Origin: Nitrospirae bacterium GWC2_57_13
Lineage (GTDB): Bacteria > Nitrospirota > UBA9217
Length of the DNA stretch: 34,338 nucleotides
Assembly: GCA_001805055.1 (NCBI GenBank)
Contig: MHDZ01000026.1
Span: 1 to 34,338, forward strand
Reading direction: 5' to 3'
Of the stretch, positions 4,788 through 9,397 are shown piece by piece. The notes under the pieces are model-generated. The model ran no database searches, was not told the origin of the DNA, and saw nothing but the letters and a program-made list of their open reading frames with translations. Both the position numbers and the translations under genes were made by a program. Position 1 is the first letter of the stretch. Each line of letters opens with the position of its first letter.

Positions 4788-6227
4788 TCAATGCGCTCCC
4801 AAGAGCTTTTCATAGACCGCTACGTATTCCCCTGCCATCCGTTCAAGGGAAAAATCCTGTTTCATGCCGTTCCGCATCAGAGCGGCCCACTCCTTCTTGT
4901 CCTGAAAGGCCCGTTGCGCGCGCTGGACGCACTCCGTTAGGGCCTCGGCAGAGTATTCCTCGAACAGAAAACCTGTGCCCATCCCGCCGGGATGATCGAT
5001 CACTGTATCGGCCAACCCGCCCGTATTACGGACAACAGGGACGGAACCATACCGCAGGGCGATCATCTGTCCGAGACCGCAAGGCTCATAGAGCGAAGGC
5101 ATCAGGAACAGGTCCGAGCCGGCGTATACGGCCCGGGCCGCCGGGTCATCGAATCGGGAAATGAGGCGCATCCGGTCCGGGTACTGCTTCTCGGCAAGCG
5201 CAAGGAGCTTGAGATATTTATCATCGCCTGTTCCGAGGATCACGACCTGCAGGCCCTGCTCGAGCAGTCCGGGGAGGGCCTCTGTCAGGATGTCCAGCCC
5301 CTTCTGGGCGGCAAGGCGCGCCACCATGCCGGCAAGCGGCGCCTCTGATTCCGGAAGGCCGGTGATCTTCCGGAGAGCGGATCTGCAGGCGATCTTTCCT
5401 GCCGGAGCATCAGCATCGAACTGCTGCGCTATGGCCTGATCGTGAGCAGGGTCCCATGTCCCATAGTCGATGCCGTTCACGATCCCGTAGAGATCAGCCG
5501 CGCGGTCCATGAGGACGCCTTCCAGTCCGTATCCGTACTCGGGCGTCTGGATCTCGCGGCTGTACGAGCGGCTTACCGTGGTGATCGCATCGGCGGTCAA
5601 TAGGGCGCCTTTCATCAAATTCATCTTGCCCCAGTATTCCAGCGTCTGGGGCGTGAAGGAGTCCATGCCAAGGCTTGTGTAGCGCATGTCTTCTTGCAAA
5701 AAGACGCCCTGGTAACCGAGGTTGTGTATCGTGAAGACGGTCCTGGTGCGCCTGAAGAGTTCGCTCTCCCCATACAGTTTTTTAACATAAAAGGGAACAA
5801 GCGCCGTCTGCCAGTCGTTGCAGTGAATGATGTCGGGCCTGAAATCAAGGGCGCGGCAGAGCTCAAGGACGGCTCGCGAGAAGAAGATGAATCGCTCGGC
5901 ATTGTCGCGAAAGTCGCCGCGCGTCGTGCCGTAGAGCCCGGGCCGGTCGAAATAGACGTCCTTGCGGACGAAATAGGTCGTTACGCCGCCGGGCAGGGAG
6001 CCGGTCAGCACATCGCAACGCTCCTTCCAGGACCCGAGGGGCACGGTGAAGGTCGCTGCGTGCTGCAGGCCGAAGCGCTCCCGGTCAACGGCCTGATACA
6101 GCGGAAGCACCAGGCGGACATCGTGGCCCAGAGCCGCCAGGGCCGGTGGAAGGGTGCCCGCCACATCAGCGAGCCCCCCGGTCTTGGCAAAGGGGGCCGC
6201 CTCGGACGCGGCAAAGAGGGCCTTCAT
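4788..6227 (-). CDS. glgA: Glycogen (starch) synthase, GT5 family
   Basis: Transfers glucose from ADP-glucose (family knowledge) to the non-reducing end of alpha-1,4-glucan; cytosolic, 479 residues, normal for bacterial GlgA. It starts MKALFAASEAAPFAKTGGLA, with the diagnostic KTGGL nucleotide-sugar motif at 15-19. The C-terminal GT-B half carries PSLYEPCGLGQM with the catalytic-domain Glu and NTGGLADTV. Upstream in-frame codons overlap galT and are discounted. The ATG at 6227 overlaps the galT stop as ATGA, so galT and glgA form one translationally coupled operon read from the promoter at 7270-7298. A glycogen role is the simplest reading; no branching enzyme or ADP-glucose pyrophosphorylase lies in the window. 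Confidence 0.93.
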   Translation of the reverse strand: MKALFAASEAAPFAKTGGLADVAGTLPPALAALGHDVRLVLPLYQAVDRERFGLQHAATFTVPLGSWKERCDVLTGSLPGGVTTYFVRKDVYFDRPGLYGTTRGDFRDNAERFIFFSRAVLELCRALDFRPDIIHCNDWQTALVPFYVKKLYGESELFRRTRTVFTIHNLGYQGVFLQEDMRYTSLGMDSFTPQTLEYWGKMNLMKGALLTADAITTVSRSYSREIQTPEYGYGLEGVLMDRAADLYGIVNGIDYGTWDPAHDQAIAQQFDADAPAGKIACRSALRKITGLPESEAPLAGMVARLAAQKGLDILTEALPGLLEQGLQVVILGTGDDKYLKLLALAEKQYPDRMRLISRFDDPAARAVYAGSDLFLMPSLYEPCGLGQMIALRYGSVPVVRNTGGLADTVIDHPGGMGTGFLFEEYSAEALTECVQRAQRAFQDKKEWAALMRNGMKQDFSLERMAGEYVAVYEKLLGAH

Positions 6228-7219
6228 GGTTTCACGTCCCGAAGGAACCTTGCCGCCTCCTCCGGCGGCGTCGGGTTGATGTAGAATCCCGATCCCCATT
6301 CAAAGCCGGCAACGTTCGTGAGCTTCGGCATGAGTTCGATGTGCCAGTGATAGTAGTCGTTCTCTTCGTCCTTGAAGGGCGAGGTATGGATGACGTAATT
6401 ATAGGGCGGTACGGCCAGGGCGCGGTCGATCCGGCGCAGCACGTTCTGGAAGAGCGAGGCGAGATCGCGGAACTCATCGGTCGTCGTGCAGGCGTAGCAG
6501 GAGATATGCTTCTTCGGCATGATCCATGTTTCGAAGGGGAAGCGCGGGGCAAAGGGGGCAAGGGCGATGAAGTGCGCACTTTCGAGAATGACGCGCGTCT
6601 CGGTCTGGATCTCCTGCTTGATGATGTCGCAGAAAATGCAGCGTTCCTTCAGCTTGTAATGCTTCCTTGATCCGTCCAGTTCCTCCTGCACCTGGATGGG
6701 CACGATGGGCAGAGCGATGAGCTGCGAGTGGGTATGTTCCAGGGTTGCGCCCGCAGCGAGGCCTTCGTTCTTGAAGATCAGCGTATACTGGAAGCGCCGG
6801 TCCTTCTTCAGGTCGTCCATCCTGTCCCGGTAGGCCCAGAGCACCTCTTCCATGGACCGTTCGGGAAGCGCGGCAAGGGTAGCGTTGTGATTGGGGCTCT
6901 CGATGATCACTTCATGGGCGCCGATGCCGTTCATCTTGTCGAACATGCCTTCGCCCTGCTTGTTCACGTCTCCCTCCACCTGGAGCGCCGGGAACTTGTT
7001 CGGTACCACGCGAATGCGCCAGTCGGGGCCGTTGGCCTGTCCATTGTCCCGATAGGCAAGGATCTCGTGCGGTGTCGTGTGCTCGTTGCCGGCACAGAAG
7101 GGGCAGAAGCCGGCACGCTTCTTTGTGCGCTGCTCATGGAAATCAATGGGCCGCTTGCTTCGCTCCGATGAGATGATGACCCAGCGGCCGGTGATGGGGT
7201 CCTTGCGCAGTTCAGGCAT
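6224..7219 (-). CDS. galT: Galactose-1-phosphate uridylyltransferase (HIT superfamily)
   Basis: Exchanges UMP (or another NMP) between a nucleotide sugar and a hexose 1-phosphate, 331 residues. The nucleophile motif is H162-T-H164-S-Q166, a variant of the HPHxQ/HxHxQ signature. C39-x2-C42 fits the zinc site, a second CIFC pair is at 194-197, and a second HWHIELMPK element near 285 is typical of the C-terminal half. An excellent ribosome binding site (AGGAGG, spacing 4) precedes the ATG. It is the first gene of the galT-glgA operon, so it may feed glucose 1-phosphate or ADP-glucose metabolism rather than a galactose pathway; no galK or galE is near. Specificity for UDP versus ADP sugars is open. 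Confidence 0.9.
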   Translation of the reverse strand: MPELRKDPITGRWVIISSERSKRPIDFHEQRTKKRAGFCPFCAGNEHTTPHEILAYRDNGQANGPDWRIRVVPNKFPALQVEGDVNKQGEGMFDKMNGIGAHEVIIESPNHNATLAALPERSMEEVLWAYRDRMDDLKKDRRFQYTLIFKNEGLAAGATLEHTHSQLIALPIVPIQVQEELDGSRKHYKLKERCIFCDIIKQEIQTETRVILESAHFIALAPFAPRFPFETWIMPKKHISCYACTTTDEFRDLASLFQNVLRRIDRALAVPPYNYVIHTSPFKDEENDYYHWHIELMPKLTNVAGFEWGSGFYINPTPPEEAARFLRDVKP

Positions 7220-7410: not shown

Positions 7411-7655
7411 CTCTCGCAAAGCTCGCAAAGGACGCAAAGGAAACCTTTACGTCCAGGGTTAAAATCAAAAAAGACTGTAACTACTCAGGTAGTTTTCGCT
7501 TAAAGCCGTCATTCCCGAATGATTTTATCGGGAATCCAGGGGTTCATAAAAGACACTGGGTCCCCGATAGAGGCACTCGGGGACGACGAATAGGGGGACC
7601 TGAGCAGTTACAAAAGACAGGGCCTTTCTTGGCGCTCTTTGCGCCTTGGCGAGAA
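7411..7655. repeat. Outer GCAAAG inverted repeat interrupted by a nested element
   Basis: The left arm at 7411-7441 (CTCTCGCAAAGCTCGCAAAG and on) and the right arm at 7621-7655 (ending CCTTGGCGAGAA) are imperfect reverse complements of the GCAAAG theme also seen at 1894-1953. Between them lies a second, independently bounded palindromic element (7477-7611), which suggests insertion of one repeat into another. With 7299-7410, where I see only the GGACAAGCCCCG word and no gene, this fills the galT-aldehyde dehydrogenase gap. Confidence 0.65.
7477..7611. mobile_element. 135-bp MITE-like palindromic element with 14-bp terminal inverted repeats
   Basis: Left terminus GTAACTACTCAGGT (7477-7490) and right terminus ACCTGAGCAGTTAC (7598-7611) are inverted at 13 of 14 positions. 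Inside, 32-nt arms at 7508-7539 and 7556-7587 pair at 24 of 32 positions around a 16-nt loop, and most mismatches are transitions that become G-U pairs in RNA. It encodes no protein. A half copy (right end plus ACAAAAG) is at 9378-9397. Calling it mobile is inference from the terminal repeats and the nested placement. Confidence 0.6.
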
Positions 7656-7736: not shown

Positions 7737-9116
7737 CTACCGGTCCCACGTGAAAAATTTCTTGAGCCATCGTAATTTTCCCGCATAGGGCGGATACCGG
7801 AGCGGGTTGTCGAGCAGGGTGGGTCTCGCCAGAATGCTTTTTCTATGAGAAAAGGCGTCGAAGCTCGCTTTTCCGTGGTAGCTGCCGAAGCCGCTCTGCC
7901 CGGCGCCGCCGAAGGGCAGGTGCGGATTGACCATATGCAGGATCGTGTCGTTCATGGTCCCGCCGCCGAAGGGGACATCCCTGATGATCCGCTTCTGCTT
8001 TTTCCGGTTCCGGGAGAAATAGTAGAGTGAAAGCGGCCTGGGCATGCTGATGAGCTTCCCGATGACGTCGTCGAGATCGTCAAAGATCAGGACCGGCAGC
8101 AGGGGTCCGAATATTTCCTCCTGCATGACCCGCGCATCCCAGGAACTGTTCAGCAGCACTGTAGGCCCGATATACCGCGTCCGGCGGTCGATCTCGCCGC
8201 CGATCAAAATATCGCCGTCGCGCAGATAGCCCGCGAGGCGGTCGAATTGCGCGTTGTTCACGATCCGGGCGTAATCAGGGCTTTTTTGCGGATCATCGCC
8301 GTAAAAGTCCTTGATCGTTGTCCGAAGAAGAGCTAGAAAGGGATCCTTTATTGCGGCATGGAGCAGCAGGTAGTCCGGCGCAACGCAGGTCTGGCCGGCA
8401 TTCAGGAATTTTCCCCAGGCGATGCGCCGGGCAGCCATTGACAGGTCCGCATCAGCATCGACAATGGCCGGGCTCTTGCCGCCCAGTTCCATGGTCACTG
8501 GCGTGAGATGCTGTGATGCGGCCTGCATCACGATCCAGCCCACGGCCGCGCTGCCGGTAAAGAAAATATGGTCGAACCGCTCGGCAAGGAGCTGCTCGCC
8601 CACCCCTTTCCCGCCTTCAACAGCAGCAACGTGTTCCTCGCCACAGGCCTCGCCTATGATCTTTGCTACGATGCCCGACGTTGCATGCGCGATCTCCGAA
8701 GGCTTGACGATGGAGCAATTTCCCGCAGCGATCGCGCCGATCAGGGGCAGCAGGGTAAGCTGGAGAGGATAGTTCCAGGGGCCGATGATCAGTGTGACCC
8801 CATAGGGTTCAGCATAGATCCGGCTTCTGGCCGGGAAGTTTAAAAGATTGGTTCGCGCTTTTTCCGGCCTGGTCCATGAGCGGAGATGGCGCATCACAAA
8901 GGATATCTCGCGAGTGATCATGCCGATCTCTGACATGAAGCTCTCCATGGCGGGCTTCCGGAGATCGCTGTCCAGGGCCTTGTACAGTTCCTGCTCATGT
9001 GACTCCACGGCCTGTTTCAGCCGTTTCAGCGCCTCGATCCGGAAGGAGACATCACGAGTTCTTCCGGTCAGGAAAAAGCGCCGCTGGTTCTCGATCAGGC
9101 TTTTAAGGTCTTTCAT
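7737..9116 (-). CDS. Class-3 (fatty/aromatic) aldehyde dehydrogenase
   Basis: NAD(P)-dependent oxidation of an aldehyde to the carboxylic acid; 459 residues, matching the shorter class-3 (AlkH/YwdH-like) enzymes. Visible signatures are PWNYP with Asn115, the base Glu210 in MELGGKSP and the nucleophile Cys244 in NAGQTCVAP; EIFGPLLPV follows in the C-terminal half. The end (GKLRWLKKFFTWDR) is basic and hydrophobic, compatible with peripheral membrane contact. Thirty-four in-frame upstream codons are repeat-derived. The start at 9116 has AGGAGC just upstream. It is monocistronic and sits between repeat arrays on both sides. The substrate cannot be predicted. Confidence 0.92.
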   Translation of the reverse strand: MKDLKSLIENQRRFFLTGRTRDVSFRIEALKRLKQAVESHEQELYKALDSDLRKPAMESFMSEIGMITREISFVMRHLRSWTRPEKARTNLLNFPARSRIYAEPYGVTLIIGPWNYPLQLTLLPLIGAIAAGNCSIVKPSEIAHATSGIVAKIIGEACGEEHVAAVEGGKGVGEQLLAERFDHIFFTGSAAVGWIVMQAASQHLTPVTMELGGKSPAIVDADADLSMAARRIAWGKFLNAGQTCVAPDYLLLHAAIKDPFLALLRTTIKDFYGDDPQKSPDYARIVNNAQFDRLAGYLRDGDILIGGEIDRRTRYIGPTVLLNSSWDARVMQEEIFGPLLPVLIFDDLDDVIGKLISMPRPLSLYYFSRNRKKQKRIIRDVPFGGGTMNDTILHMVNPHLPFGGAGQSGFGSYHGKASFDAFSHRKSILARPTLLDNPLRYPPYAGKLRWLKKFFTWDR

Positions 9117-9160
9117 GGGCTCCTGTCCTAACCCGGACAAACCCCGATACTCGAGACAGG

Positions 9161-9216
9161 CCGGAATTGGAAATTGAAAATGGTAAATTGGAAAGTGCAA
9201 ATTTATGAAAAACGGC
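9161..9216 (+). repeat. 'GGAATTGGAAATT' AT-rich repeat, copy 1
   Basis: Begins CCGGAATTGGAAATT and ends GAAAAACGGCA. It is closely similar to 9521-9556 in the same orientation; related text occurs at 10941-10983 and, inverted, near 25335. Confidence 0.7.
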
Positions 9217-9284
9217 ACTTCAAAAATCGCAACTCTTCAGATTCTTTTCAGAATGGGATAAGCCACATCTGAGAAAAAACCTTC

Positions 9285-9370
9285 AATCCGCAGATTTCTC
9301 AGATGGGCGCAGATTTAAAAACCAGAATTCGGGTTTGCTGTTTTCTGCGTAATCCGCGTAATCTGCGGAT
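9285..9370. repeat. Imperfect palindrome of AATCCGCAGATT / AATCTGCGGAT type
   Basis: Left arm 9285-9316 (AATCCGCAGATTTCTCAGAT and on) and right arm 9344-9370 (ending GTAATCTGCGGAT) are imperfect reverse complements. It lies within the 462-bp gap between the aldehyde dehydrogenase and the DUF721 gene. Confidence 0.7.
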
Positions 9371-9377
9371 AAAAAAT

Positions 9378-9397
9378 GACCTGAGTAGTTACAAAAG
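9378..9397. repeat. Half copy of the 7477-7611 element (right terminus)
   Basis: GACCTGAGTAGTTACAAAAG matches 7597-7616 with one difference. Its 14-bp core (9379-9392) is the exact reverse complement of the left terminus at 7477-7490, so the aldehyde dehydrogenase gene lies between perfectly inverted 14-mers. Confidence 0.75.

Follow-up and report, generated by a model that had tools for sequence, protein, structure and literature searches.

Probable insertion of an IS66-type MITE with a CGTC-tagged REP-dimer core into an older GCAAAG palindromic repeat of a Nitrospirota genome

REPs tagged with CGTC, including Neisseria dRS3 and Rickettsia RPE-4/RPE-6, were surveyed in 2013 (Di Nocera et al. 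2013, PMC3733652), and how they move was left open. In that survey, no transposase gene with CGTC units at its flanks was found; the REPs were described as having no dedicated transposase, and transposases of many kinds were suggested as possible movers. Only one earlier case of a MITE with a REP inside is known, namely QMITE2 of Coxiella burnetii (PMC5896051), which measures 150-190 bp and whose genome also has truncated copies reduced to the REP. Chunjie of Geobacter uraniireducens (review PMC10969869), a mostly intergenic MITE of 178-235 bp with conserved ends and direct repeats, resembles the element reported here by description only. Single-gene IS66 elements (ISBst12-like, 1.3-2.8 kb) have GTAA-type terminal repeats and an 8-bp target duplication, and duplications of 8 bp are also known from the IS66 elements ISPpa5a and ISPpa7 (PMC3281130). 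In the literature we searched, of which coverage was incomplete, no description was found of IS66 MITEs, of IS66-type MITEs with exchangeable palindromic cores, or of CGTC REPs as MITE cargo.

Here we analysed a window, namely the whole stretch of 34,338 nucleotides of contig MHDZ01000026.1 from Nitrospirae bacterium GWC2_57_13, in which the initial annotation had described a palindrome nested at three levels. All three levels are present at the coordinates given there, each layer is a known kind of repeat, and the chain sits between two minus-strand genes, a GalT-like gene (6224-7219) and an aldehyde dehydrogenase gene (7737-9218). The features are as follows.

7411-7441, no strand assigned: outer GCAAAG palindromic repeat, left arm, with other copies in the genome
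7469-7476, plus strand: target-site duplication, left 8-bp copy, AAAAGACT
7477-7611, no strand assigned: IS66-type MITE, 135 bp, without coding sequence
7477-7490, plus strand: left terminal inverted repeat (TIR), GTAACTACTCAGGT
7507-7588, no strand assigned: CGTC-tagged REP dimer (family description in PMC3733652)
7507-7510 and 7585-7588: REP dimer tags CGTC and GACG, pointing outward
7511-7535, plus strand: REP hairpin 1, stem 7511-7518 / 7528-7535, 9-nt loop, 98.3% of cells paired, covarying
7536-7539 and 7556-7559: REP dimer tails CCAG and CTGG, face to face
7560-7584, plus strand: REP hairpin 2, stem 7560-7567 / 7577-7584, 9-nt loop, 97.2% of cells paired, covarying
7598-7611, minus strand: right TIR, GTAACTGCTCAGGT in minus-strand reading
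7612-7619, plus strand: target-site duplication, right copy, AAAAGACA, 7/8 identical to the left copy
7621-7655, no strand assigned: outer GCAAAG palindromic repeat, right arm, with other copies in the genome
9229-9392, minus strand: second IS66-type MITE, from another family, with a CCGCAGATTACGC core, 94% identical to C70:42316-42451

The 135-bp MITE is like QMITE2 in its general build, whereas QMITE2 has a GTAG REP, other ends and target duplications of 7-11 nt. With the single-gene IS66 elements it shares the GTAA-type terminal repeats and the 8-bp target duplication; compared with their length and coding capacity, it has 135 bp and no coding sequence, and only the ends are in common.

We consider it very likely that the whole chain arose when a MITE with IS66-type ends and a REP-dimer core was inserted into an older GCAAAG repeat. 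The GCAAAG palindromic repeat would have been present first between the GalT-like and aldehyde dehydrogenase genes. The 135-bp non-autonomous element with its IS66-type ends would then have entered the AT-rich central spacer of this repeat, and the insertion would have produced the 8-bp target duplication. The enzyme was most likely an IS66 transposase supplied in trans, which would have used the ends to cut or copy the MITE, with the REP dimer as a passenger. Since the MITE is built around the CGTC REP dimer, each transposition of the MITE would move the REP dimer too.

The outer layer was examined through its own copies. The alignment of its arms (7412-7442 versus 7625-7654) beat 1000 of 1000 shuffles, and the whole 245 bp used as query gave 68 matches in the own genome. 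At no fewer than ten loci, query positions 1-61 are joined directly to 201-245, that is, the palindrome is present minus the inner 140 bases (C92:2538-2639, C92:31836-31936, C50:30996-31096, C18:45417-45517, C17:5194-5293, C15:58778-58862, C91:53533-53622, C66:23082-23171, C102:5363-5451 and C76:7249-7346). These uninterrupted palindromes supply the empty site that the initial annotation had proposed to search for. In the closest of them, L006, the reverse complement reads TTAAAATTAAAAAAGACTGGGTCCTTCTTGG and the target AAAAAAGACTGGG; the window counterpart is AAAAAAGACT, then the MITE, then AAAAGACAGGGCCTTTCTTGG. The uninterrupted repeat at L006 represents the empty site of the 135-bp MITE.

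Some GCAAAG repeats are broken by another short repeat, TTTCTCCGTCTCCGTCCCGCATCCA...GTCACGGAGCGGG, as in L018 (~1560-1620) and L028 (~1560-1640), which adds a further nesting layer. The reverse nesting is seen in L051 (this genome, C94:45774-45787), where a degenerate IS66-type MITE is built around a GCAAAG palindrome.

The ends of the middle layer are 14 bp long (GTAACTRCTCAGGT), and the two TIRs are identical at 13/14 positions. Further copies of the 135-bp unit occur in the own genome at 94, 93, 84 and 71% identity, contrary to the lack of other copies that the initial annotation had named as refuting its reading. Sister copies lie between exact 8-bp duplications, which differ from site to site: TTTTCAAC (C56), CTGGAAAA (C87) and ATTTATTG (C74, a 183-bp version). 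An exact 8-bp duplication, GTTTTTTA, also borders a 162-bp element on C24 that has the ends of the MITE around a different core. In another genus, G005 carries a copy with 82% identity over the full 135 bp and a duplication matching at 7/8 positions (AAACGATT/AAACAATT). Target-site duplications, empty sites and sister copies mark the 135-bp unit as an inserted element. The idea of sequential insertion of different repeat families, put forward in the initial annotation, is supported for this layer by the empty sites and the target-site duplication, and for the inner layer by the finding of the core elsewhere, both without TIRs and in other MITE backbones. As single-stranded DNA the 135-bp unit has a much more stable fold than its shuffles (z = -5.5), and the predicted DNA fold is branched with two separate 8-bp hairpins. 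A comparison with Rfam gave only weak, implausible microRNA matches, far under the gathering score.

The 183-bp version of the MITE (L005 1501-1683; this genome, C74:37458-37640) has an extra hairpin insert in both REP arms. The two inserts complement each other, and both halves of the palindrome are altered symmetrically.

We classified the unit as an IS66-type MITE because of the exact 8-bp duplications of the sister copies and the near-identical ends on IS66 elements of the same phylum. Specifically, same-phylum genomes do carry the IS66 transposase (PF03050), and two such elements have recognisable ends and exact 8-bp duplications: L071, 1749 bp, with ends GTAACTATTCAGG, duplication TAAAGGTC and a single 504-aa ORF, and L089, 1294 bp, with ends GTAACTATTCAGG, duplication GTCCATCC and PF03050. 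The ends of these elements and the MITE ends (GTAACTRCTCAGG) show one difference in 13 compared positions. The unit therefore combines ends in common with IS66 elements and an 8-bp duplication with the lack of a transposase gene of its own. No PF03050 was found in the own genome (95.7% complete, 105 contigs), and we therefore infer the transposase from relatives: a single-gene TnpC-type IS66 transposase, now absent from the host genome or unassembled, would have moved the MITE in trans.

The inner layer reads, from 7507 to 7588, CGTC, 8-bp hairpin, CCAG, spacer, CTGG, 8-bp hairpin, GACG. It is like the published CGTC REPs (PMC3733652) in the terminal CGTC tag and its reverse complement, in 8-bp stems (8-9 bp in the family) that open with A-T pairs at positions one and two, in the short CCA tail, in its organisation as a dimer and in its paired spacer ends. 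The stem of hairpin 1 is ATTCCCGA/TCGGGAAT, and the first pair of hairpin 2 is G-C in this copy and A-U in 15/22 relatives. It differs from the published REPs in its loops, which are 9 nt in both hairpins versus 4-5 nt, and in riding in a MITE with 8-bp target duplications, of which PMC3733652 describes none for CGTC REPs. The dimer is dispersed and present in high copy number. A covariance model, R1, built from 22 phylum dimers recovered ~17 dimers in the own genome, and a DNA match to the query at E <= 0.01 was found in 114/396 genomes of the phylum. Nearly all the phylum matches listed lack the TIRs and cover the core alone (query ~29-116) or one arm (31-63), and where relatives have a free core, most of the inverted repeats surrounding it were no better than shuffles. 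R1 also matched a dimer in an Elusimicrobiota MAG (L200), where it is enclosed by an IS66-type MITE with different linkers.

Most of the own-genome dimers, 11-12 of the ~17 found with R1, sit in a second MITE family, in which a related REP-dimer core is placed between the ends TTACTAAGA...TCTTAGTAA in an element of ~155 bp with 11-12 copies (C43:2714, C75:18712, C48:569, C50:41933, C37:19544, C98:20781, C35:368, C2:4830, C40:36345, C76:17360, C17:3783 and C7:13352; one end is degraded in C17 and in C35). The dimers of this family are canonical CGTC REPs with short loops. TA is probably the target of these MITEs. DDE_3 (PF13358), the candidate IS630-type driver, was not found in the own genome.

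As for the pairing of the inner element, its arms (7508-7539 / 7556-7587) are separated by a 16-nt spacer and differ at 8/32 positions. According to the initial annotation, transitions in the inner arms mostly turn into G-U pairs, as if RNA pairing were maintained. Of the eight differences, 7 are transitions, but only four differences give G-U on the plus strand and three on the minus strand, so wobble pairing is not favoured and neither strand shows a bias toward it; A-C (three times) and A-G (once) account for the other four on the plus strand. We then compared both structures on one set of 22 sequences (A2), aligned by sequence similarity and fitted to neither structure; the shuffle control ignores relatedness, and slid controls agree with it. 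With the junction stems included, the two-hairpin structure had 95% paired cells, 40 double-change cells versus 10.6 +/- 2.5 in shuffles, and a covariation score of 0.267 versus 0.108 +/- 0.012. For the long hairpin, the corresponding values were 79.7% paired cells versus 81.9 in shuffles, 13 double-change cells versus 19.2 +/- 4.0, and a covariation score of 0.130 versus 0.153 +/- 0.012. The covariation that the initial annotation had proposed to check between the arms is found within each arm instead, and its claim of maintained between-arm pairing is not supported. The maintained structures are two local hairpins. We regard a single functional RNA hairpin with 32-bp arms, selected for between-arm pairing, as most improbable for the inner element: 24/32 arm positions pair in this copy, plus four G-U, and the long hairpin is the minimum-free-energy RNA fold of this copy, yet the 22 relatives show no compensatory excess, the local hairpins covary strongly instead and a fold with DNA parameters gives two local hairpins. 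As the maintained structure, the long hairpin is refuted at this 22-sequence sample by the missing between-arm covariation. Covariation thus needs to be tested for each candidate pairing, as the obvious long hairpin was not the structure maintained.

Two other explanations concern how the layers came about. The location between two co-directional genes, together with the frequent occurrence of REPs downstream of genes (PMC3733652), would suit a unit that never transposed and is a conserved intergenic structure, such as a terminator or RNA stabiliser, that only seems repetitive. We give this very little credence, as the target duplications are different at every site, empty sites exist and copies lie at unrelated loci, and the region's sole terminator-like stem, on the plus strand, is not part of the unit and does not exceed chance expectation. 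More probable, although still unlikely in our judgement, is that the REP dimer itself was mobile and that a palindromic MITE already in place received it, as a dimer, in its centre. CGTC dimers do occur in at least two MITE backbones here and, with other linkers, in the Elusimicrobiota IS66-type MITE; REP dimers within palindromic targets have been described in Anabaena variabilis and Halothiobacillus neapolitanus (PMC3733652); and matches to Y1_Tnp (PF01797), a superfamily that includes RAYTs, were present in 14/14 genomes searched in the family. Set against this, the own-genome matches with the ends and linkers of this MITE all have the core too, the survey's failure to find a transposase gene flanked by CGTC units speaks against a mobile dimer, and no MITE with identical linkers that lacks the REP dimer was found; a search for short REP-free versions gave none in the window's family and one unrelated 55-bp element in G046. 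The MITE may have acquired the dimer either through ends that formed around it or through insertion of the dimer into a MITE.

Returning to the REP dimer as a passenger of the MITE, the same ends also surround other palindromes in the own genome, including a GCAAAG-like core (C24; degenerate in C94), the CCGCAGATTACGC core and others. MITEs with the CCGCAGATTACGC core are found at C70, C76, C91 and, within the window (C26), at 9229-9392, where the left end is degenerate (GCAACTCTTCAGA) and the right end intact. The aldehyde dehydrogenase gene is thereby bracketed by two MITEs with the same end type. We further scanned named genomes with the pattern GTAACTRCTCAGG-N(109-139)-CCTGAGYAGTTAC, which returned at least 118 stretches from Nitrospirota, Nitrospinota, Thiotrichaceae, Saprospiraceae, Elusimicrobia, Chloroflexi, Desulfobacterota, ANME-1 archaea and others. 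Among the 80 loci read, 29 had an exact 8-bp duplication and 42 matched at 7/8 positions or better, versus 3 exact cases in 6241 control pairings, in which the left flank of one locus was set against the right flank of another. The cores of these 80 loci form 39 clusters, between which no similarity was detectable. Judged by these sequences, IS66-type ends surround dozens of unrelated cores across many phyla.

In this genome, an element with clear marks of IS66-type transposition is built around a CGTC dimer, and a second MITE has a related dimer as its core, so the question of how CGTC REPs move becomes testable. These dimers inside MITEs fit the suggestion of a broad transposase spectrum (PMC3733652). 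With the core found without ends in many genomes, a related core in the TA-ended MITE and IS66-type ends on unrelated cores, REP dimers look like cargo of several MITE types, and CGTC REPs may in general spread by hitchhiking in MITEs. It is conceivable, and we propose it tentatively, that CGTC REPs spread as interchangeable cargo in MITEs of unrelated families (IS66-type, TA-ended and perhaps a third), ends and palindromic cores being modules exchanged across many phyla.

A separate observation concerns L112, L117 and L120, in which REP dimers are flanked on both sides by a common motif near NTCTCAWAATAGTATT (TCTCAWAATAG in a motif scan), possibly a third MITE backbone.
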